This document shows positions 6,924 to 45,182 of a stretch of DNA of 64,000 bases, one piece after another. Both the position numbers and the translations under genes were made by a program. The stretch is from Euzebya pacifica (lineage in GTDB: Bacteria > Actinomycetota > Nitriliruptoria > Euzebyales > Euzebyaceae): contig NZ_CP031165.1 of NCBI RefSeq assembly GCF_003344865.1, forward strand, positions 5,585,910 to 5,649,909. The letters are read 5' to 3'. The stretch's first letter is position 1. Each line of letters opens with the position of its first letter. The notes below the pieces were generated by a model. It did not search any database. It was given only the letters and a program-made list of their open reading frames with translations, and had not been told where the DNA came from.

Positions 6924-8039
6924 ATGACGACCGCCGACCGCCCGCTGTGGCAGGACCGCTTTCCACCCATCGGGTACTGGGTGAAGGTCGCTGCGCTCGT
7001 GCTGCTGCTGGTGATCGCCATCCGCATGCTGGCGATCCTGCAGGGCCTGCTGATCGTCCTCGCGGCCTCGGCGGTCCTGGCCATCGGCCTGCAACCGACG
7101 ATCTCGTGGCTCGAGAAGCGGGGTCTCCCCCGCGGTCTGGCGATGACGGTGATCATCGCCGTCGGCATCGTCGCCACCGGCGCCGCCCTGTTCCTGATCG
7201 TGCCCGTCGTAGTGGACCAGGTCGGCACGCTCGTCGAGACACTCCCGGAGTACGTGCAGGGGTTGGAGGAGGACAGCCCGTTCATCGCCGACCTGACGGC
7301 ACGGATCGACCCGATGGCGCAGGTGGGCTCCGCGGTCGGACAGCTGCCCGACGGGGCGATGAGCGCCGTCGGTGGGGTCTTCTCCGCGATCTTCGACCTG
7401 CTCCTCGTCCTGACGCTGACGCCCTACTTCGCGATGTCGCTGCCCCGCATCAAGCGCTGGGGCGTACGCCTGCTGGTGCGTGAGGACCGGGAGGGGTTCC
7501 TCCGCCTGCTGAACCGTTCGACCGACCTGATGGCCAACTACATCGCCGGGAACCTGCTGGTCAGCGCCATCGCCGGCGTCGTGGCCTGGATCGCGTTGAC
7601 CGCCATCGGCGTGCCCTACGCCGCGGCGCTCGCCGTCTTCATCGCCCTGACCGACATGGTCCCCGCCGTCGGTGCCACCGTGGGGGCGGCCGCCGCCGTC
7701 GGCGTGGCCCTCACCCAGGGCGTCGGCCAGGCCCTCCTCACCGGCGCGGTCCTGCTCACCTACCAGCAGGTCGAGAACTACGTCATCGTGCCCCGGGTCA
7801 TGCGCGACGCCATCGACGTCTCGCCGGCCATCGGCATCGTCGCGCTGCTGATCGGCGGCACCCTCGCCGGGCCCGTCGGGGCGCTGCTCGCGCTGCCGGT
7901 CGCCGCCATGGTCCGCGTGCTGCTGGAGGAGTTCGTGCTCAAGGAACGCATGCGCACGGTCAGGCAGGCCGATGCCGAGGAGGAGCGCAACGGCGGTCGC
8001 CGTCGACCGCGCGGCATCCGCGAACGCGTCCTTCCCTGA
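6924..8039 (+). CDS. AI-2E/PerM family (UPF0118) membrane protein
   Basis: 371 residues from the ATG at 6924. Hydrophobic segments early (VALVLLLVIAIRML and following), a hydrophilic middle (EYVQGLEEDSPF), then further membrane segments including the ADMVPAVGAT-like ALTDMVPAVGAT stretch and QQVENYVIVPRVM, both hallmarks of the AI-2E/PerM family. Members export small molecules or ions, but substrate is not predictable from sequence. A GTG at 6873 in the same frame overlaps the previous stop (GTGA) and would add 17 residues; I prefer 6924 because those residues are not membrane-like, but coupling keeps the alternative open. Confidence 0.85.
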   Translation: MTTADRPLWQDRFPPIGYWVKVAALVLLLVIAIRMLAILQGLLIVLAASAVLAIGLQPTISWLEKRGLPRGLAMTVIIAVGIVATGAALFLIVPVVVDQVGTLVETLPEYVQGLEEDSPFIADLTARIDPMAQVGSAVGQLPDGAMSAVGGVFSAIFDLLLVLTLTPYFAMSLPRIKRWGVRLLVREDREGFLRLLNRSTDLMANYIAGNLLVSAIAGVVAWIALTAIGVPYAAALAVFIALTDMVPAVGATVGAAAAVGVALTQGVGQALLTGAVLLTYQQVENYVIVPRVMRDAIDVSPAIGIVALLIGGTLAGPVGALLALPVAAMVRVLLEEFVLKERMRTVRQADAEEERNGGRRRPRGIRERVLP

Positions 8040-8067
8040 TCGGCCCCCACCCCTCCAGGTGACCCCC

Positions 8068-8096
8068 TTCACAGATTTGCTTGGATATCCTAGTAT
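8068..8096 (+). promoter_or_regulatory. Promoter of icmF
   Basis: TTCACA (8068-8073), a 17-bp spacer and TAGTAT (8091-8096) lie in an unusually A/T-rich patch, giving a predicted start near 8103 and a leader of about 37 nt before the GTG at 8140. The leader is too short for a cobalamin riboswitch. Confidence 0.55.
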
Positions 8097-8139
8097 CGGA
8101 CATCCAACCGCTCTGTCCCCTTCCCACGCTGGAGCCGCA

Positions 8140-11100
8140 GTGAGCACCGAGTCGACCCTGCACGTCCCCACCAACCCCGTCCGGATCGTGACCGCCGGGT
8201 CGCTGTTCGACGGACACGACGCCGCCATCAACATCATGCGGCGCCTGCTGCAGTCACAGGGGGCCGAGGTCATCCACCTCGGGCACGACCGCTCCGTCGC
8301 CGAGGTCGTCACCGCCGCCATCCAGGAGGACGCCCAGGGTGTGGCGGTCAGCTCCTACCAGGGCGGCCACGTGGAGTACTTCACCTACCTGCGCGAGCTG
8401 CTCGACGAGAAGGGCGCCGGCCACGTCCGCGTCTACGGCGGTGGCGGCGGGACGATCGTGCCGGCCGAGATCGAGCTGCTGCACTCCCGTGGGATCGACC
8501 GCATCTTCTCCCCGGGTGACGGCCAAGAGCTGGGGTTGCCGGGGATGATCAACCAGATCATCCGCACCTGCGACGTGTCCCTCTCCGATGGCGACGAACC
8601 GAGCGCCGACGCGGTGCAGACCGGCGACGAGACCGCCATCGGCCGGCTGATCACCCGCCTGCAGGACGGACAGGTCCCTGCATGGCTGGGCGAAGCCGCC
8701 GCGGCCCGGACGGTGCCGGTCCTTGGTATCACCGGCACGGGCGGCGCCGGCAAGTCCTCGCTGACCGACGAGCTGGTCCGTCGCATCCGGCGGGACCACG
8801 AGGACAAGCTGCGGGTGGCCGTCCTGGCGATCGACCCCTCCCGTCGTCGCGGCGGCGGTGCGCTGCTGGGTGACCGCATCCGCATGAACACCGTCGAGCC
8901 GGGCCTGGTGTTCTTCCGCTCGCTGGCGACCCGCACGCCGGGTGCGGAGGTGCCCGACAACCTCGACGCGGTCATCGACGCCTGCAAGGCCGGCGGCTTC
9001 GACCTGGTCATCGTCGAGACCCCCGGCATCGGGCAGGGCAACGCCGCCATCACCGACCACGTCGACGTGTCGATGTACGTGATGACGCCCGAGTTCGGTG
9101 CGGCCAGCCAGCTGGAGAAGATCGACATGCTCGACTTCGCCGACCTGGTGGCGATCAACAAGTTCGAGCGGCGCGGGGCCGAGGACGCCATGCGTGACGT
9201 CGCCCGGCAGATGGTCCGCAACCGCCAGGCGTTCGGCACGCCGTGGGAGGAGATGCCGGTCTTCGGCACCTCCGCCGCCCGCTTCGACGACGACGGCGTC
9301 ACCGCGCTGTACCAGGAGCTGAAGGCGCTGCTGACCCCGAAGGGGCTGCCCGAGGGCGGCGGGGCGCTGCCACGCGTGGACGTCCGCCACTCCTCCCACC
9401 TGTCGGTCATCGTGCCGGGCGAACGCGAGCGCTACCTGGCCGACATCGCCGCCACGGTGCGGGAATACCACGCAACCACCGAAGAGCAGGCCCAGCTGGC
9501 GGGCAAGCTGCAGGCCGCCCAGCGAACCAGCCGGATGCTCGAGGCCGGCGAGGCCGCAGAGGCCGTGGACAACCTCGTCGATGACCTCGAGGGGCAGCTG
9601 GATCCCGAGGTCCACGCGCTGCTGGACTCGTGGACGCAGACCGTCGAGGACTACTCCGGCGAGGAGATCACCTTCTCCGTCCGTGGCAAGCAGATCAGCG
9701 CCCCCGCCACCCGCGAGACCCTCTCGGGCTCCAGGGTCCGCCGGGTCGCCCTGCCCCGCACGACGGAGAAGGCCGAACAGGTCCGGTTCCTGCGCCGCGA
9801 GAACCTGCCGGGCCACTTCCCCTACACCGCCGGCGTGTTCCCGCTGAAGCGCGACGGCGAGGCCCCGGCCCGCATGTTCGCCGGTGAGGGCGACCCGTTC
9901 CGCACCAACCGTCGCTTCCACCTGCTCGCCGAGGGCCAGCCGGCCACCCGCCTGTCCACGGCGTTCGACTCCGTCACCCTCTACGGCCGTGACCCCGACG
10001 AACGTCCCGACATCTACGGCAAGGTCGGCACCTCCGGTGTGTCGATCGCGACGCTGGACGACATGAAGGAGCTCTACAAGGGCTTCGACCTGTGCGACCC
10101 CACCACGTCGGTGTCGATGACGATCAACGGGCCGGCCCCGACGATCCTGGCGTTCTTCCTCAACACCGCACTGGACCAGCAGGTCGACCGGTTCGTGGAG
10201 AAGGAGGGCCGCCAGCCCACGGAGGAGGAGATGGTGGGCATCCGCGCCCACACCTTCTCCAGCGTCCGCGGGACGGTCCAGGCCGACATCCTCAAGGAGG
10301 ACCAGGGCCAGAACACCTGCATCTTCTCCACCGAGTTCAGCCTGCGCTGCATGGCCGACATCCAGGAGTGGTTCATCGACCACGACGTCCGCAACTTCTA
10401 CTCGGTGTCGATCAGCGGGTACCACATCGCCGAGGCGGGGGCGAACCCCATCAGCCAGCTGGCGTTCACGCTGTCCAACGGCTTCACCTACGTCGAGTCC
10501 TACCTGGCCCGCGGCATGGACATCGACGACTTCGCGCCCAACCTGTCGTTCTTCTTCTCCAACGGCATGGACGCGGAGTACACGGTGCTCGGCCGTGTTG
10601 CCCGCCGGATCTGGGCCGTGGCGATGAAGGAGCGCTACGGCGCCAACGACCGGTCGCAGAAGCTGAAGTACCACGTGCAGACCTCGGGCCGGTCGCTGCA
10701 TGCCCAGGAGATGCACTTCAACGACATCCGCACGACGCTGCAGGCGCTGTGCGCGATCTACGACAACACCAACTCGCTGCACACCAACGCCTACGACGAG
10801 GCGATCACGACCCCCACGACGGAGTCGGTGCGCCGGGCGCTGGCCATCCAGATGATCATCGACCAGGAGTGGGGCCTGGCGAAGAACGAGAACCCGCTGC
10901 AGGGCTCCTACATCGTCGACGAGCTGACCGACCTGGTCGAGGAGGCCGTGCTCAAGGAGTTCGAGGCCATCTCCAACCGTGGCGGCGTGCTGGGCGCGAT
11001 GGAGACCGGCTACCAGCGCGGCAAGATCCAGGACGAGTCGATGAAGTACGAGCACCGCAAGCACGACGGCTCGTTGCCCATCATCGGCGTCAACACCTTC

Positions 11101-38087: not shown

Positions 38088-39512
38088 ATGTCGCGAACCT
38101 CCCTCCTCCTGGTGATCGTCCTCTGCCTCGTCGCCGCCGCATGCACCGGCGCCGACGACGGTTCGGCGACCGAGACCGCCGAACCGACGGCCACGACCGA
38201 ACCGTCGACCGTCCCGTCCGACGGTTCGTCCCCTGCCCCCTCCGAACCAGCAGGCGACGACGCGGCCACGGGCGCCTCACCCGAGTCGCACCTGGCGTGG
38301 TTCGTCTCGGAGGCGGCCCAGCCCGACATCGACGCGGCCGAGTACGAGGACCGCTTCGCCCAGGTCTTCCGTGACCAGGTGCCCCTCGAGCAGTTCACGG
38401 CCATCCTCGAGGACCTGTCCACCCTCGCCCCGTACACGACCGGCGAGGTCGAGGTGGTGGGCCCCCAGCTGGTGGGCCAGCTGACCGGCAGCGACGGCAC
38501 CGGCCTGATCGTCACCCTGTCGGTGGATGCCGACGGCCGCATGGACGGCCTGCTGGTCCAGCCGGGCGAACCGCCGGAGCTCGAGGACCCGCCCGCGACG
38601 CTCGACGAGGTCGGGCAGCGCCTCCAGGCGATCGGCACGACCACCTTCCTGGCCGCCGACGTCCAGCAGGCCGGGGACCGGGTGGAGTGTGTGTCGTTGG
38701 CGTCAGTGGGCGGCGACACCCCCGCCCCGATCGGGTCGGCGTTCAAGCTGTACGTGCTCGGGGCGCTGGCCGACGCGGTCGAGGCCGGAACACTTCGGTG
38801 GGATGACGAACTGACCATCACCGCCGAGCTGAAGAGCCTGCCGAGCGGGGTCCTGCAGCAGCGCGAGGACGGATCGACCGTCACCGTGCAGGAGGCCGCC
38901 GAGCTGATGATCTCGATCTCCGACAACACCGCCACCGACCTGCTGATCGACGCGGTCGGCCGCGAGTCGGTCGAAGCGGCGCAGGCCGCCTACGGACACG
39001 CCGACCCGTCGCTCAACATCCCCTTCATCACGACCCGGGAGCTGTTCGCCCTGAAGACCGCCGAGCCTGCGCTGCAGGACGCGTTCCTCACCGGCGACGA
39101 CGAGGCACAGCGATCGATCCTCGCCGACCTGGCCACGGTGCCGCTGGCCGACATCCCGGTCGAGGCGTTCCTCGACGACCCCGTCCGGCCCGACGAGCTG
39201 GAGTGGTTCGCCTCCCCCGCCGACCTGTGCCGTGCGCTCGCCCTGCTGATGGATCGGGCCGAGGACGCCGGGCTGGCCCCGGTCGCCGAGATCCTGACGG
39301 CCAACCCGGGCGCGCCGGACGAGGACGAACGATGGGCGCGGGTGGCGTTCAAGGGCGGGTCCGAACCCGGTCTGATCACCCTGGCCTGGCTGCTGGAGGA
39401 TGCCGACGGCCGCCGCTTCGCCATCACCGGGTCCGTGGTGGATCCCGACGAGGCGTTCGACCCGGGCGAGGCGATCCTGCTGATGGCCGAGGCCCGTTCG
39501 CTGATCGGCTGA
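38088..39512 (+). CDS. Class A beta-lactamase-like serine hydrolase lipoprotein (LpqF-like)
   Basis: 474 residues. Lipobox LVAAAC with Cys19, a Thr/Ser/Pro-rich linker to about 65, an N-terminal NTF2/ORF-like domain (70-175), then a penicillin-recognising serine-hydrolase domain: SAFK (Ser217, Lys220), ISDN (Ser278) and FKGG (Lys422) in place of KTG. The layout matches the mycobacterial LpqF/Cpe lipoprotein family; whether it hydrolyses beta-lactams or another ester/amide is unknown. GACACT 6 nt before ATG is a poor leaderless -10. Convergent with the copper oxidase gene. Confidence 0.87.
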   Translation: MSRTSLLLVIVLCLVAAACTGADDGSATETAEPTATTEPSTVPSDGSSPAPSEPAGDDAATGASPESHLAWFVSEAAQPDIDAAEYEDRFAQVFRDQVPLEQFTAILEDLSTLAPYTTGEVEVVGPQLVGQLTGSDGTGLIVTLSVDADGRMDGLLVQPGEPPELEDPPATLDEVGQRLQAIGTTTFLAADVQQAGDRVECVSLASVGGDTPAPIGSAFKLYVLGALADAVEAGTLRWDDELTITAELKSLPSGVLQQREDGSTVTVQEAAELMISISDNTATDLLIDAVGRESVEAAQAAYGHADPSLNIPFITTRELFALKTAEPALQDAFLTGDDEAQRSILADLATVPLADIPVEAFLDDPVRPDELEWFASPADLCRALALLMDRAEDAGLAPVAEILTANPGAPDEDERWARVAFKGGSEPGLITLAWLLEDADGRRFAITGSVVDPDEAFDPGEAILLMAEARSLIG

Positions 39513-39536: not shown

Positions 39537-40706
39537 TCAGATCGCGGCGAACCAGCCCATGGCGCCGCGGTGGGCGATCGCGTGCTGGTGGGGGTGGAAC
39601 ATGTACCGGCCGCGTTCGGACAGCGTGAACTCCAGGATCGCCCGGTCCATCTGGCCGAGCGTGACGACGTCATGGGTGAACGCCGGCGATTCGCCGATGC
39701 CTGCCGGGTAGACGTCGAAGGTCTCGGCGTGCAGGTGGAACGACGCGACCGGGTCGAACTCGGTCGCGTTGACGACGTAGGCCCGGACCGGTTCACCGGC
39801 CGGCAGCTTGATCGGGAACTTCTCGTAGAACCCGGCGATACCGTTCCAGGCGTAGACCTCGTTGCGCCCGTCCTCGTCGAGGTCGAACCCCGACAGCAGC
39901 AGCGCCACCTCGTGGGCAGGGGGTCGGCCACCCGGTGGGTCGACGACCAGCATCCCGTACAGCCCGCGGGCGATGTGGCGATCGATCGGCATCGTGTGGC
40001 AGTGGTAGGGGTGCACCCCCGCCGGTCCGGCGATGATCTCGTAGACGGTCTCGCCGCCGGGCGGCACGGGTTCCCAGCCGTCGTGGAACGGTGAGTGGCG
40101 TCCGTGGAAGTGCAGGTTGTGGTCGTGACCGGTGGCGTTGCGGAACCGGACGCGGATCGTCTCGCCCTCGGTGGCACGGATGATCGGACCGGGCACGGTG
40201 CCGTTGTAGGTCCAGGCCTGCAGCGTGTGGCTGCGGCTGATCCGGTGGCTGCGTTCGACCACGTCGATCTCGACCTCGACGGTGCCGGTCGTCGGGGGCG
40301 GCGGGACCGTCAGACCATCCAGCGCGGCCTCGGTGACGTCCTCGGGTGCGGCGTACGGGCCGCCGTAGGGGCCTGCTGCCGCGCCCACGGGCAGCTCGGC
40401 CGACATGGCACCCGGGTTGGCCGTGGCGTACCCATCTGCGGCGGAGTGGGCGACGTGACCGGCCTCGGTCGCCCCGGTGACCGGCGCGGCGGCCTGGGCC
40501 CCCTGTGCGTGGGTGATGGCGTGGGTGCTGACCGCACCGATGGCCATGCCACCCCCGAGGACCGACAGGCCCCCACCACCGAGGCTGCGCAGTGCCTGTC
40601 GGCGGCCCAGCCGGCGCCGCCCGCGACCGTCGGCGGTGGACGGATCGACCGGGTCGGCGGTGGCGTCGATGTCGTCGGCCGGCGTCTCCTCCACCTCCTC
40701 GGTCAT
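39537..40706 (-). CDS. Tat-exported two-domain multicopper oxidase
   Basis: 389 residues from ATG 40706 (a GTG six codons upstream would overlap the previous gene). Twin-arginine type leader (RRLGRRQAL then a Gly-rich hydrophobic stretch), Ala-rich linker, then two cupredoxin domains. Copper ligands: HFHG near 200, HPYHCHTMP near 237, FHLHAETF near 324 and MFHPHQHAIAHRGAMG near 372. The presence of both type 1 and trinuclear-type His clusters in two domains fits small laccases or nitrite-reductase-like oxidases. Natural partner is probably the cupredoxin lipoprotein encoded 4 bp upstream. Confidence 0.88.
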   Translation of the reverse strand: MTEEVEETPADDIDATADPVDPSTADGRGRRRLGRRQALRSLGGGGLSVLGGGMAIGAVSTHAITHAQGAQAAAPVTGATEAGHVAHSAADGYATANPGAMSAELPVGAAAGPYGGPYAAPEDVTEAALDGLTVPPPPTTGTVEVEIDVVERSHRISRSHTLQAWTYNGTVPGPIIRATEGETIRVRFRNATGHDHNLHFHGRHSPFHDGWEPVPPGGETVYEIIAGPAGVHPYHCHTMPIDRHIARGLYGMLVVDPPGGRPPAHEVALLLSGFDLDEDGRNEVYAWNGIAGFYEKFPIKLPAGEPVRAYVVNATEFDPVASFHLHAETFDVYPAGIGESPAFTHDVVTLGQMDRAILEFTLSERGRYMFHPHQHAIAHRGAMGWFAAI

Positions 40707-40710
40707 CGTG

Positions 40711-42654
40711 TCAGACCACCCCACCGATCAGGAGGGCCCCGACGGCGACGAGCAGCCACACCAGCGTGCCACCGACGGCGACCAGCAGTCGACGGCGCCA
40801 GGACCAGCCGTCGGCCGCAAGCCCGGTGTACGCGATCACCCCGACAGTTGGCCATCCGATCGCCACGAGCGACCAGCCGGCCTTCTGCCATGCAGCCTTC
40901 TCGCCGCGCCACAGGCGTGCGAGGGCCCAGAGGCCGCCGAGCAGCCAGACGAGCACCGGGATCCACCACAGCAGCGCCCCGTACAGCACCGGCCAGAAGC
41001 CCCCGTCCAGCGGGATGCCGAACAGGGTGGTGCGGCCCTCGGCGATGTCGATGCCGTCCGGCATCGCCGGGGTGACGATGGTGTCGGGGTCGAAGTCGAG
41101 GCTCGCGAACACGTCGACCGCCGGCACGACGGGGGCGTCCACACCACCGGGCAGCTGGGCGAAGTCCATCTCGGGCTTCGGGGCCTCGCCGTGCTCGAGC
41201 TGGGGGTTCTGGCCGGCGTTGACCTGGGCGATCCGGGCAAGCGGATCGGACGCCGTCGCCAGGCCGTACCAGAGCGGCAGGTTGATGCCGTCGCAGCTGT
41301 GGAGCGTCCCGGCCAGGAACGGCAGCGTCGTGTCGGCGTCGTTGCCGGCGATGCACGACCCCTCCTCCAGCGGGCCGCCCAGAGCCAGGTCGGACCGGCC
41401 GGACCCGCGGATGACGTTGTCGCGGATCTCGTTGCCGCCCGACGGCCAGAACTGCTCGTCGATCATCGACACGACCTGCACGCCGGAGGTCGGACTGTTG
41501 ACGATCAGGTTGTTGCGCACCACCGCGTCACGGACACCCGCGAGCACGACCCCGTTGCCGTACGCGGACCATTCGGCGGTGCGGTTGGGTGCCCGGTCCA
41601 CCTCACCGTTGTCGTGGATCCAGTTGCCGGCGATGACGACGTTGTTGGCCGGGGGCAGCAGCTCGGAATCCAGCGTGTTGGGGACGATGCCGGCGACGTT
41701 GTGTCGCCACTCGGAGTTGACGATCCAGATGTTGCCCGACGCGTTGGTGCCGGAGTAGCCCAGGCCGTTGAACTCCGCCACGACGTCGGTGACGACGGCG
41801 TTGCACGGGTCGCACTGGCCGATGTAGTAGCCGGCGTCCCACGAGCCCGAGGCGTAGCTGTGCTCGAACAGCCCGTCGACGGAGTCGAAGGCGTAGATGC
41901 CGTAGACCCAGTCGTCGATGGCGGTCAGGTAGGAGCCGCGGTACCCCGTGACCCCGTTCCAGAAGAAGCCGTTGACGGTGTAGCCGCGGGCGGTGATGTT
42001 CTCGATGGCCACGCCGTCGGCGGTGACCGCGAAGCCGTTCTCGCGGGTCAGCTCGCCGTCGAGGATGACCTCGTTGCGGTCGGTGCCGCGGATGACCAGC
42101 CCGGGGGTGGTCACCGACACCGCTTCCTTGTAGACGCCGGGACCGATCAGGACCAGGTCGCCCGGATCGGCGGCGTCGACGGCGTTCTGGATCGTCGGGT
42201 GGTCCTCGGGCACGCGTCGGGTCTCGCCGGTCCATTCGGCCGGCGCGTCGGACTGGTCCGCGGCCACCGCCACCGGGTCGGCGACGTCACCGACCACCAG
42301 CGTGCCGACCATGCCCTGCCAGCTACCCTCCTCGTCCTGCGTGGCATGCAGGGAGCAGTAGTAGGCGTACAGGCCGGGTTCGTCGATCGTCAGCGTCCAG
42401 TCGTCACCCGGCTCGGTGTTCTCCCCGGACTCGTCGACGGAGAGGAAGGACCCGTCGTCGGCGATGACGTTGTGGGGGACACGTCCGGCGTTGCGGAAGC
42501 GGACCGGTTCGCCGGGATCGACCTCGACAACGGCAGGGGCGTAGGTGTTGTCCAGCATGCGAACCTCGACCTCGTCGGCAGACGCACCGTTGCAGGCGGC
42601 GGCCAGCAGTGCACCGAGGAGGACGAGTGCACGCGTTCGGCGTAGGCGTTGCAC
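40711..42654 (-). CDS. Lipoprotein fusing plastocyanin-like, beta-helix and membrane domains
   Basis: 647 residues. Lipobox LLAAAC at Cys21; a type 1 copper cupredoxin follows (VPHNV near 60; YYCSLHA near 100; GSWQGMVGTLVV supplying Met). Residues about 150-480 are a right-handed parallel beta-helix of the NosD/pectate-lyase-like repeat kind (HPTIQNAVDAADPGDLVLIGPGVY, then many IVN/IAGN/VIRG turns). Three C-terminal helices (about 555-575, 597-615, 622-645) anchor it a second time. Gene lies 4 bp before the multicopper oxidase; probably its electron carrier or scaffold. GTG start lies 6 nt after TAGGTT. Confidence 0.83.
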   Translation of the reverse strand: MQRLRRTRALVLLGALLAAACNGASADEVEVRMLDNTYAPAVVEVDPGEPVRFRNAGRVPHNVIADDGSFLSVDESGENTEPGDDWTLTIDEPGLYAYYCSLHATQDEEGSWQGMVGTLVVGDVADPVAVAADQSDAPAEWTGETRRVPEDHPTIQNAVDAADPGDLVLIGPGVYKEAVSVTTPGLVIRGTDRNEVILDGELTRENGFAVTADGVAIENITARGYTVNGFFWNGVTGYRGSYLTAIDDWVYGIYAFDSVDGLFEHSYASGSWDAGYYIGQCDPCNAVVTDVVAEFNGLGYSGTNASGNIWIVNSEWRHNVAGIVPNTLDSELLPPANNVVIAGNWIHDNGEVDRAPNRTAEWSAYGNGVVLAGVRDAVVRNNLIVNSPTSGVQVVSMIDEQFWPSGGNEIRDNVIRGSGRSDLALGGPLEEGSCIAGNDADTTLPFLAGTLHSCDGINLPLWYGLATASDPLARIAQVNAGQNPQLEHGEAPKPEMDFAQLPGGVDAPVVPAVDVFASLDFDPDTIVTPAMPDGIDIAEGRTTLFGIPLDGGFWPVLYGALLWWIPVLVWLLGGLWALARLWRGEKAAWQKAGWSLVAIGWPTVGVIAYTGLAADGWSWRRRLLVAVGGTLVWLLVAVGALLIGGVV

Positions 42655-42660
42655 GCCGGC

Positions 42661-42666
42661 AACCTA
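42661..42666 (-). promoter_or_regulatory. -10 element TAGGTT of a leaderless promoter
   Basis: Minus-strand TAGGTT ends 6 nt before the GTG at 42654 and would drive the cupredoxin-lipoprotein / multicopper-oxidase pair. Confidence 0.5.
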
Positions 42667-42733
42667 GGCAGCCGGGTCGACAACTGTCAACGGTCTCCAC
42701 TTCTTCGGGCCGACGGCCGTGTCGATCGAGGCG

Positions 42734-45043
42734 TCAGGGTCCGGTCGTGGCCTGGACCTGGGTGACCACGTCGTCGGCGATGACGGTCAGGTCACCGAGG
42801 ACGATCAGGCTGGGGTCACTGACGCCGTTGTCGACCAGGTACTGCTCGGTCTCGGCCGGCAGGGACGTGGCCCGGACGCCCAGCTGCGGGGCGCCGAGGC
42901 GGACGCTGAGCGGGGACGCCGCGAGCGCCAGGGCCCAGCCGAGGTCGAACTCGAGGTTGGACAGCACGAAGGCCCCCTGCGTGGCCCGGTCGCCCCACAG
43001 CTGGGTGGCGACGGCCGCTGCGGTGGCGTGGCGGTTCGCGCCGGCCACGCGGACACCACCGGGAAGCTGACCGAACACCGCGTCGGAGACCACCGCGGTC
43101 CCGCCGGGGACGTTGGTGGTCGTCGTGCCGTACCGCGCCAGGGCATCGCTGGTCTGCTGGGGCAGGTCGTCGGTGCCGGTCAGCAGCACGGGCGCACCGA
43201 CCGCGGCGGCCAGGGCCCCGGCGGTCACGGCGTCGGGCCAGTCATTGGCGAACGCCACAACGGCCGAGTCGGTGTCGGGGTTCTCGGCCACGACGACGTC
43301 GGAGATGGCCACGGCCGTGTCGACACGCCCGGGTCCGGCCAGTCGTTCGACCACGAACCCCGCGTCCGTCACGGCCTGTGCAGCCGCGCTTGACACCGCG
43401 GCGGTGCCACCGACGACGCGCACGGTGGCGCCGTCGGGCAACGCCCGCTCGATCTCGGCGAGCGTGGCGTCGTTGATCGGCTGGCCCTCGCCGCCCTCGG
43501 TGAACAGGATGCAGGAGTGGTCACCGGCCAGGGGCGCCCCGGCGAGGGTGTCGGCGAAGACGTCGTTGCGGGCCAGCACGACCGTGCGGGCCTTGTCGTC
43601 GCCGAAGAGGTACTGGCACAGCTCGATGGCGATCTCGATGGGGTCACCGGAGATCCCATCGAGCCGGGCTTCTCCCGAGCCGTAGGCCACCAGGACCGGC
43701 AGGGAGGGGGAGTCAGCGGTGCGGTGGATGGCGTAGAGCCGGCCGTCGGGCAGGATCGGACCGAGCGTCGCCTCGCCGACGACGCCGTCGCCGAGGAAGT
43801 CCTCGGCGTCGGGTGACTGGAAGATCCGCTGGCCGGTGGCCCCGTCGTGGATCTCCAGCGGCACCCCGCCGAAGGTCGAGGTGTAGACCCTGCCAGCGGC
43901 GTCGACGACCAGCTGGTTGGCGTTGTTGGAGAACCCGTCGAGCTCGGCGGTCCACACGAACGACCCGTCGTCGAGGTCGAAGGCGATCAGCGTGTCCGAG
44001 GCGTTGAGGACCACGTTGCCCGCGGCGACGGCCATGCGACCGAAGCGGTCGAACGGGTCGCCCTCACCGCCGCCGGTGACGACCCACTGCTGGTCGAGGG
44101 TGTCGGGGTCCAGCGACACGACCCGTGGGGGGTCGTCGTGACCGCCGAGGTTGCGCGTGTGGACCAGGACCTGGGTCCCCGTGTGCAGCAGGCCGTCCTC
44201 GACGAAGGACGTCCCCGGTACGACGGCGACGGCGAGCACGGCACCGGTCGCCACGTCGATCGCGACGATCTGGATGAGGCGTGGGTCGCTGCCGTCGATC
44301 TGCTGCCCGACATACGCAGTGGTGCCGTCGGGGGACAGGACCACGCGATCGAGCCCCTGGTCGTCGTCGACGTCGGCGGGCCGATAGGTCCAGGCCCGGG
44401 TCATCGGTGTCGTGGTCGTGTCGATGCCCACCACGGCGTCGTCGTCGGCACGGGTGTAGGCGACCAGGATCCCGCCTGCGCCGAGCCGCAGCTCGTTCTG
44501 GCACTCGTTGAGCCGTCGTTCGCCCTCCACGTCCGGGGAGGTGTAGCGGTTGACGATCTGGCCGGTGGCGGCGTCGATCTCGACTGGATCGGAGGAGAAG
44601 TTGTTGACCCCCGACGTGTCGGAGTTGGCGACCAACGTCGCGAAGATCCGGCCGTCATCGGTGGCCGTCGGGAGGCAGGTGCTCTCGATGTCGTCCAGCG
44701 TCCAGGCGACGTTGCCGTCGGCCGTGTCCAGCGCGACCAGCCGGTCGATGACGTCGCCGTTGACCTCGACGGTGTTGCCCAGCAGGACGTGCCCTTCGCT
44801 GTCGGCGACGAGACGTCGGTCGCGTGGAGGGTTGGTGAGCGCGTCGAACGCGACGACGTAGTCGGGTCCGGGAAGGACTGGTCCGACGCCCTCGAAGGCC
44901 TGGCTGCCCGCGGGCGTGCCGTCGGGCGACCCGCCGGTGGTCAGCGAGACCTGTCGGGTCGATGCCGGCGGCCGTGCGGCCGCGGGCAACACGGCAAGGA
45001 CGGTCACGACGGCGGTGAACACGGCAATCAGGCGAACGCGCAT
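42734..45043 (-). CDS. Secreted beta-propeller protein with cell-wall-binding-2 repeats
   Basis: 769 residues. Signal peptide (VRLIAVFTAVVTVLAVLPAAA), then a PQQ-like quinoprotein beta-propeller spanning about 60-440 (repeated LVALDTADGNVAWTLDD, IEIDAATGQIV-like, LIAFDLDDGSFVWTAEL blades). Three cell-wall-binding-2 repeats start near 464, 566 (VERLAGPGRVDTAV) and 663 (VRVAGANRHATAA). Likely displayed on the cell wall; ligand unknown, and the lack of catalytic residues suggests binding rather than enzymology. ATG 45043 was chosen for the signal peptide and GAGAGG 6 nt upstream. Confidence 0.85.
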   Translation of the reverse strand: MRVRLIAVFTAVVTVLAVLPAAARPPASTRQVSLTTGGSPDGTPAGSQAFEGVGPVLPGPDYVVAFDALTNPPRDRRLVADSEGHVLLGNTVEVNGDVIDRLVALDTADGNVAWTLDDIESTCLPTATDDGRIFATLVANSDTSGVNNFSSDPVEIDAATGQIVNRYTSPDVEGERRLNECQNELRLGAGGILVAYTRADDDAVVGIDTTTTPMTRAWTYRPADVDDDQGLDRVVLSPDGTTAYVGQQIDGSDPRLIQIVAIDVATGAVLAVAVVPGTSFVEDGLLHTGTQVLVHTRNLGGHDDPPRVVSLDPDTLDQQWVVTGGGEGDPFDRFGRMAVAAGNVVLNASDTLIAFDLDDGSFVWTAELDGFSNNANQLVVDAAGRVYTSTFGGVPLEIHDGATGQRIFQSPDAEDFLGDGVVGEATLGPILPDGRLYAIHRTADSPSLPVLVAYGSGEARLDGISGDPIEIAIELCQYLFGDDKARTVVLARNDVFADTLAGAPLAGDHSCILFTEGGEGQPINDATLAEIERALPDGATVRVVGGTAAVSSAAAQAVTDAGFVVERLAGPGRVDTAVAISDVVVAENPDTDSAVVAFANDWPDAVTAGALAAAVGAPVLLTGTDDLPQQTSDALARYGTTTTNVPGGTAVVSDAVFGQLPGGVRVAGANRHATAAAVATQLWGDRATQGAFVLSNLEFDLGWALALAASPLSVRLGAPQLGVRATSLPAETEQYLVDNGVSDPSLIVLGDLTVIADDVVTQVQATTGP

Positions 45044-45182
45044 GGGGCCTCTCGTGGCCACGTTCGTCGGAAACTGCAGAGGTGGCCGGGTCGCTTCCGA
45101 AGGCACCCTAGACGACTGGTTCGCCGAGTCCGGGCCCGTCAAGACTCTCGTGTTCTCCATGATCGTCCCTTGGATCGTGGCC

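Follow-up and report, generated by a model that had tools for sequence, protein, structure and literature searches.

In this study, a 64,000-nt stretch of the genome of Euzebya pacifica (NCBI RefSeq assembly GCF_003344865.1, contig NZ_CP031165.1, positions 5,585,910 to 5,649,909; hereafter the window) was analyzed for a two-gene unit of copper proteins. Both genes lie on the minus strand. The gene encoding a cupredoxin/beta-helix fusion protein (40711–42654) comes first and that encoding a two-domain multicopper oxidase (MCO; 39537–40706) comes next. The gap between the stop codon of the fusion gene and the ATG of the oxidase gene was confirmed to be 4 nt, as given in a preliminary description of this DNA; an in-frame GTG at 40724, the alternative start, would overlap the fusion gene. 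The features of the unit, with type 1 copper abbreviated as T1 and twin-arginine translocation as Tat, are as follows.

42661–42690, minus strand: candidate promoter, TTGACA-N18-TAGGTT, ending 6 nt before the GTG of the fusion gene (leaderless geometry)
40711–42654, minus strand: cupredoxin/beta-helix/three-helix membrane protein, 647 aa, GTG start
42592–42654, minus strand: predicted signal peptide up to the lipobox-like Cys21 (LAAAC), from sequence and conservation of C21
42289–42573, minus strand: T1 (cupredoxin) domain, residues 28–122, Pfam Copper-bind, ligands H61, C100, H103 and M115
41335–42219, minus strand: right-handed beta-helix, residues about 146–440, from Pfam Beta_helix, a sub-cut-off match to TIGR03805, and conservation
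41803–41814, minus strand: CDPC (C281–C284), a CxxC motif inside the beta-helix
40714–40998, minus strand: C-terminal region with three hydrophobic stretches, residues 553–647, from hydropathy; PLDc_N-like in relatives
39537–40706, minus strand: two-domain multicopper oxidase, 389 aa, ATG start, Pfam Cu-oxidase_3 and Cu-oxidase_2
40599–40604, minus strand: twin arginine R35-R36 of a Tat-like signal, invariant in 18 of 18 oxidases
39933–40241, minus strand: oxidase domain 1 (Cu-oxidase_3, residues 156–258), with T1 site H196, C236 and H244, axial place L249, and cluster histidines H199, H201, H235 and H237
39546–39845, minus strand: oxidase domain 2 (Cu-oxidase_2, residues 288–387), with cluster histidines H324, H326, H371 and H373

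Pfam Copper-bind matched residues 37–121 of the fusion protein (3e-8, 34.4 bits, cut-off 21.2) and Pfam Beta_helix matched residues 229–396 (5.9e-9, 36.2 bits, cut-off 25.9), and hydropathy placed the C-terminal hydrophobic stretches at residues 553–582, 596–614 and 621–647. These results agree with the earlier view of a cupredoxin, a beta-helix and three C-terminal helices joined in one protein. In an alignment of 20 fusions, the ligands H61, C100, H103 and M115 were invariant (20/20), as were both cysteines of the CxxC motif. The domain thus carries the His, Cys, His and Met T1 ligands of the plastocyanin/cupredoxin superfamily, and its match to the model of plastocyanin proper, TIGR02656, was 42.3 bits, under the cut-off of 87.85. 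The protein had also been called a lipoprotein; C21 was kept in 18 of the 20 aligned fusions (exceptions, L041 and L042; loci are numbered with L and genomes with G), but the lipobox LAAAC is marginal. In the Pfam scan, PLDc_N did not reach an E value of 0.1 in the window fusion; a relative, L104, passed the PLDc_N cut-off. Left out of the alignment were L039, which has a sequencing gap, L037, whose gene is split, L038, which is cut, the distant L057–L059, and loci added at a later stage (L097 and those from L100 upward). Because structure predictions were poor, with a mean predicted local distance difference test score of 33.5 for the fusion (alignment of 5 rows) and 47.9 for the oxidase (alignment of 3 rows), the fold assignments rest on sequence profiles.

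The T1 set of domain 1 and all eight cluster histidines were invariant in 18 of 18 aligned oxidases; residues were assigned to coppers by what we take to be the NirK/MCO pattern. A single HCH motif was present per oxidase, always in domain 1 (18/18), and the motifs of domain 2 are HLH and HPH. The invariant twin arginine agrees with the Tat signal proposed earlier. Two-domain MCOs of type C are defined in PMC13151041 by a T1 site in the N-terminal domain. The window oxidase consists of two Cu-oxidase domains only, has a T1 site in the N-terminal domain but none in the C-terminal one, and carries the eight histidines of the trinuclear cluster (18/18, under the assumed residue pattern), which places it, by its sequence, among the type C two-domain MCOs. 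The best solved relatives were 7rab (9.7e-57, residues 142–388) and 3gdc (2.2e-56, residues 143–387), presumably both of type C; like the window enzyme they have two cupredoxin-like domains, a T1 site in domain 1 and four HxH/HCH motifs. By analogy with its kind, the oxidase would be expected to form a homotrimer with the trinuclear cluster between protomers.

NirK was considered as an identity for the oxidase and rejected. The enzyme scored 84.3 bits against TIGR02376 (cut-off 296.3), has eight cluster-type histidines, and carries Leu249 where the NirK-like chain 9cck carries Met in the alignment. NirK has a Met axial ligand and a three-His type 2 site, and a Leu in the T1 axial place raises the potential. 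Based on this ligand set, on Leu249 and on the T1 site in domain 1, the enzyme is expected to be an oxidase rather than a nitrite reductase.

Occurrence of the pair was surveyed in 66 genomes of the class to which the window belongs, with the fusion model at 1e-40 and the oxidase model at 1e-60. The fusion model matched 22 of the 66 genomes, in 20 at full length, and the window-type oxidase was found in 18. All 18 oxidases lay downstream of a fusion gene, on the same strand and within 1 kb; in G418 the oxidase was interrupted by a contig end. In the class, therefore, this oxidase (1e-60) was not found without the fusion (18/18), and full-length fusions without it occurred in two genomes (G007 and G014). 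The pair was also present in two loci of metagenome-assembled genomes (MAGs), L036 and L039, and the two genes overlapped by 4 nt in L039, L041, L042 and L051 (script-chosen starts). Four of the five loci on named contigs of the nearest relatives were labelled Acidimicrobiia or Acidimicrobiaceae. Since the window genome (6.37 Mb) gave four Cu-oxidase_2 matches, we estimate chance adjacency of fusion and oxidase at less than 1% per locus. Protein distances of the partners were correlated (Mantel r 0.93, 17 pairs, none of 5000 permutations as high), an agreement that plain co-inheritance gives too. All loci are from one phylum, and the set is skewed to relatives of the window, with genomes that are not independent.

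In the family designated f4, a small three-helix protein of about 100 aa is encoded between fusion and oxidase in 13 of 14 pair loci (L045–L050, L052–L056, L097 and L120). It resembles the C-terminus of the fusion itself, and the one such protein scanned, that of L050, was barely over the PLDc_N cut-off. In an Acidimicrobiia MAG (L037, 5022–7157), cupredoxin and beta-helix were present as two adjacent open reading frames (ORFs), possibly through a sequencing error, and the beta-helix part was 69% identical to the window fusion. Two weaker oxidase relatives fell under the 1e-60 line: one in G001 (166.6 bits), not adjoining the fusion, and a second oxidase-like ORF in L051 (57 bits).

The fusion is widespread in the phylum and not unique to the window. 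The beta-helix family was detected at 1e-40 in 50 of 396 sampled phylum genomes. Sixty-five beta-helix loci (fetched relatives plus the window) were classed, and 36 were scored as fused, with a type C oxidase downstream in 20, a type B oxidase upstream in three (L115, L117 and L119) and none in 13. L038 and L108 were dropped because the contig ends there; 23 of the remaining 34 testable fused loci have an adjoining oxidase. The parts were also found as separate genes. L104 encodes cupredoxin, beta-helix with three transmembrane helices and type C oxidase in three adjacent genes, whose order is that of the parts in the window, and L134–L137 each have consecutive genes for a type B oxidase, a beta-helix and a stand-alone cupredoxin. 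The type B layout, with HCH in the last copper motif, was confirmed in all seven loci concerned (L115, L117, L119 and L134–L137), in each of which the oxidase is upstream of the beta-helix.

In the beta-helix tree (65 rows), these seven loci grouped in a single starred clade, separate from the rows linked to type C oxidases; the deep forks were open or weakly supported. Therefore, the linkage with an oxidase had at least two origins or underwent many losses. Mere close kinship as an explanation of the pairing is also weakened by the type B association, which stands separately on a different branch of this tree. The distant locus L059, outside the 36 because the script did not score its single ORF as a fusion, has a cupredoxin/beta-helix ORF of the class (7528–9042) and, upstream, an oxidase of type B layout. 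The longer oxidase-like ORF downstream in L130 was counted as neither type B nor type C. Within 1 kb of the beta-helix, a DUF1996-like gene was observed in ten loci (L112, L116, L118, L121, L122, L124, L125, L127, L129 and L131), five of which have a close separate cupredoxin gene; DUF1996 was confirmed by Pfam in L125, and the other nine were assigned by similarity to it.

Compared with known systems, the unit differs from each in some respect. Among the type C MCOs, the window subfamily, whose complete members score more than 500 bits on the subfamily model, occurs in linkage with a cupredoxin/beta-helix gene. A sister oxidase subfamily of about 210–348 bits is common in the phylum, with 33 of 44 matching genomes, a count obtained by subtraction of ten class genomes and G222. 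NirK-type reductases with a fused cupredoxin (9cck and 6hbe), whose C-terminal part is matched by the fusion cupredoxin, likewise link a cupredoxin to a two-domain copper enzyme; here, however, the cupredoxin is joined to a beta-helix and membrane helices instead of the enzyme, and the ligands of the enzyme are of oxidase type. SLAC-like type B two-domain laccases, so named from reading the sequences and not by family search, are alike in adjoining a beta-helix and a fused or neighbouring cupredoxin in the seven type B loci, and unlike the window in having the T1 Cys in the last copper motif and lying upstream.

The analogy with NosD drawn in the preliminary description held at the level of fold, both being exported right-handed beta-helices that adjoin a copper enzyme. 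It did not extend further: the fusion scored 32.7 bits against TIGR04247 (cut-off 300; best stretch, residues 155–224) and bears a cupredoxin and membrane helices, and identity with NosD was rejected. Against PF05048 the window fusion reached 14.5 bits (cut-off 23.6); three beta-helix relatives, L104, L119 and L134, passed this cut-off. No NosZ model passed in the window genome, where the best scores were 33.1 bits for TIGR04246 and 20.2 bits for TIGR04244 (cut-offs 625), from short C-terminal parts only. The best NCBIfam match of the beta-helix was TIGR03805 (81.9 bits, residues 155–400), under its cut-off of 141.5; its usual partner is, we assume, TIGR03806.

The unit is flanked by two genes. 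On the plus strand, tail to tail with the oxidase gene, 38088–39512 encodes a class A beta-lactamase-type protein with an ORF_12_N domain (Pfam), which looks lipoprotein-like on reading. Upstream of the fusion gene, 42734–45160 (minus strand) encodes an 808-aa protein with a PQQ_2 propeller and three CW_binding_2 (CWB2) stretches (Pfam). With an opposite-strand gene on one side and the propeller/CWB2 gene on the other, the unit was taken as two genes. Pfam was run on five window proteins and ten others, and most names of neighbouring genes were given from reading the proteins.

A leaderless promoter had been proposed for the unit from sequence only. The pattern TTGACA-N16-19-TANNNT, sought on both strands of the 64 kb, has its sole match at the candidate site before the fusion GTG. 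With a laxer pattern, among the 20 fusion upstream regions, the candidate promoter was found in the window and in its nearest relative, L040; the other 18 lacked it, and a stricter scan reported nothing. In f4, a palindrome, CGGAACG-N13-CGTTCCG, lies at most about 200 nt ahead of the fusion gene in seven of 14 pair loci (L047, L048, L050, L052, L055, L056 and L120), and a TetR-like gene, named from reading, is divergent to the fusion in L045, L049 and L054. These features hint at induced expression in f4.

Taken from the domains, ligand residues, signals, gene order and conserved pairing, a topology, a docking and a direction of electron flow can be proposed. The two genes would specify a redox unit of copper proteins on the outer side of the membrane. 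C-terminal helices, and probably a lipid as well, would hold the fusion protein to the membrane, where it would display its blue-copper domain on a beta-helix stalk. The Tat-exported oxidase would dock on this tethered protein, electrons from a membrane carrier or an outside substrate would pass from the Met-ligated cupredoxin, of lower potential, to the T1 copper of the oxidase, of higher potential with Leu in the axial place, and the trinuclear cluster would reduce O2 to water. We give a probability of roughly 0.45 to this reading, in which the oxidase docks on the tethered cupredoxin protein and receives electrons from it. In its favour are the invariant T1 and cluster ligands, Leu249 in the axial place, the downstream position of all 18 class oxidases, the overlapping genes, the correlated protein distances, the three-gene order of L104, the seven type B loci and the low estimate for chance adjacency.

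Several observations weigh against this reading. Eleven of the 34 testable fused loci (L035, L043, L044, L100–L103, L105–L107 and L110) have no oxidase in the stretch examined, and the T1 ligands are retained in fused loci without an adjoining oxidase. A Cu-oxidase_2 search of 15 genomes gave a match in 10; in G113, G187 (87% complete) and G075, all of which have the fusion, no Cu-oxidase_2 match appeared at 1e-5. In G103, a sister-kind oxidase (348 bits) lies on a different contig from the fusion. The fusion, or its cupredoxin, therefore has some role without this oxidase. Neighbours of several oxidase-less fusions look unrelated on reading, among them an elongation-factor-like GTPase (L044), a tyrosyl-tRNA-synthetase-like protein (L103) and an acyltransferase (L106). 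No recurring electron-donor gene was seen at the locus, with only a minority of the neighbours searched by family. The preliminary description had named two observations that would speak against the pairing. Copper ligands missing in alignment were not seen, the sets being intact in 20/20 fusions and 18/18 oxidases; a fusion common beside unrelated genes was found in part, in the 11 oxidase-less loci. The link it had drawn between fusion and oxidase accordingly stands for 18 of the 20 fusion genomes of the class but not for these loci or for the three genomes without a Cu-oxidase_2 match at 1e-5.

The main rival is a copper-loading platform, a role like that attributed to NosD, in which copper bound by the beta-helix with its CxxC and by the cupredoxin would be handed to the exported oxidase, instead of electrons being passed. 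It draws on the invariant C281 and C284, on relatives passing the PF05048 cut-off, which point to a beta-helix of the NosD superfamily, and on beta-helix–oxidase linkage in several arrangements. However, the window protein is far under the NosD cut-offs in a genome without a passing NosZ model, and the CxxC is absent in L134–L137 and retained at loci without oxidases. L134–L137 have oxidases; therefore, the CxxC is not needed for every oxidase partner. Tat-exported proteins may moreover be folded and metal-loaded before export, and we regard the loading platform as unlikely.

Beta-helices of this fold (CASH domains) often bind carbohydrate, and the beta-helix could instead anchor a laccase-like oxidase to a polysaccharide or surface polymer, with the cupredoxin as a relay or oxidative-stress accessory. 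In favour of this, beta-helix relatives without cupredoxin or oxidase in the stretch examined exist, and the TetR-like gene or palindrome beside some f4 fusions suggests induction. Such an anchor would leave the conserved cupredoxin ligands unexplained, and no carbohydrate-active gene was recognised among the neighbour proteins read, most neighbours not having been searched by family; it appears quite improbable. A third alternative is loose neighbourhood, in which the fusion would be a copper protein of general use in the membrane and the oxidase would only share its promoter, for example in a joint copper-stress response with a cuprous oxidase and a copper sink. The oxidase-less loci and the three genomes without a Cu-oxidase_2 match speak for it. 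Against it stand the constant company of this oxidase (1e-60) with the fusion in the class (18/18) and the recurrence of the association, with an oxidase of a different type, in a second lineage; of the alternatives it seems the least probable.

Beyond the docking and electron transfer proposed for the window pair, the cupredoxin/beta-helix protein may serve exported copper oxidases as a modular chassis in the membrane, docking them and exchanging electrons or copper with them. Within one phylum it would have gained two-domain oxidase partners of different kinds at least twice, type C enzymes downstream and type B enzymes upstream, by fusion or splitting of genes or by gene neighbourhood. This wider proposal is tentative, and we hold it somewhat doubtful. 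Each part is already known, cupredoxin-linked copper enzymes and beta-helix accessory proteins being known kinds, and the combination of a tethered cupredoxin/beta-helix with an oxidase is a new variant of these. The preliminary description did not recall the arrangement as described, and no description of it was found among the open-access papers listed, most subscription journals lying outside the search. The physiological roles of two-domain bacterial oxidases, above all of type B, are poorly understood according to PMC13151041. A dedicated membrane-tethered cupredoxin partner, if true, would open the electron donor and copper supply of such an oxidase to direct tests, and beta-helix accessory proteins would then be known outside nitrous oxide reductase systems as well.

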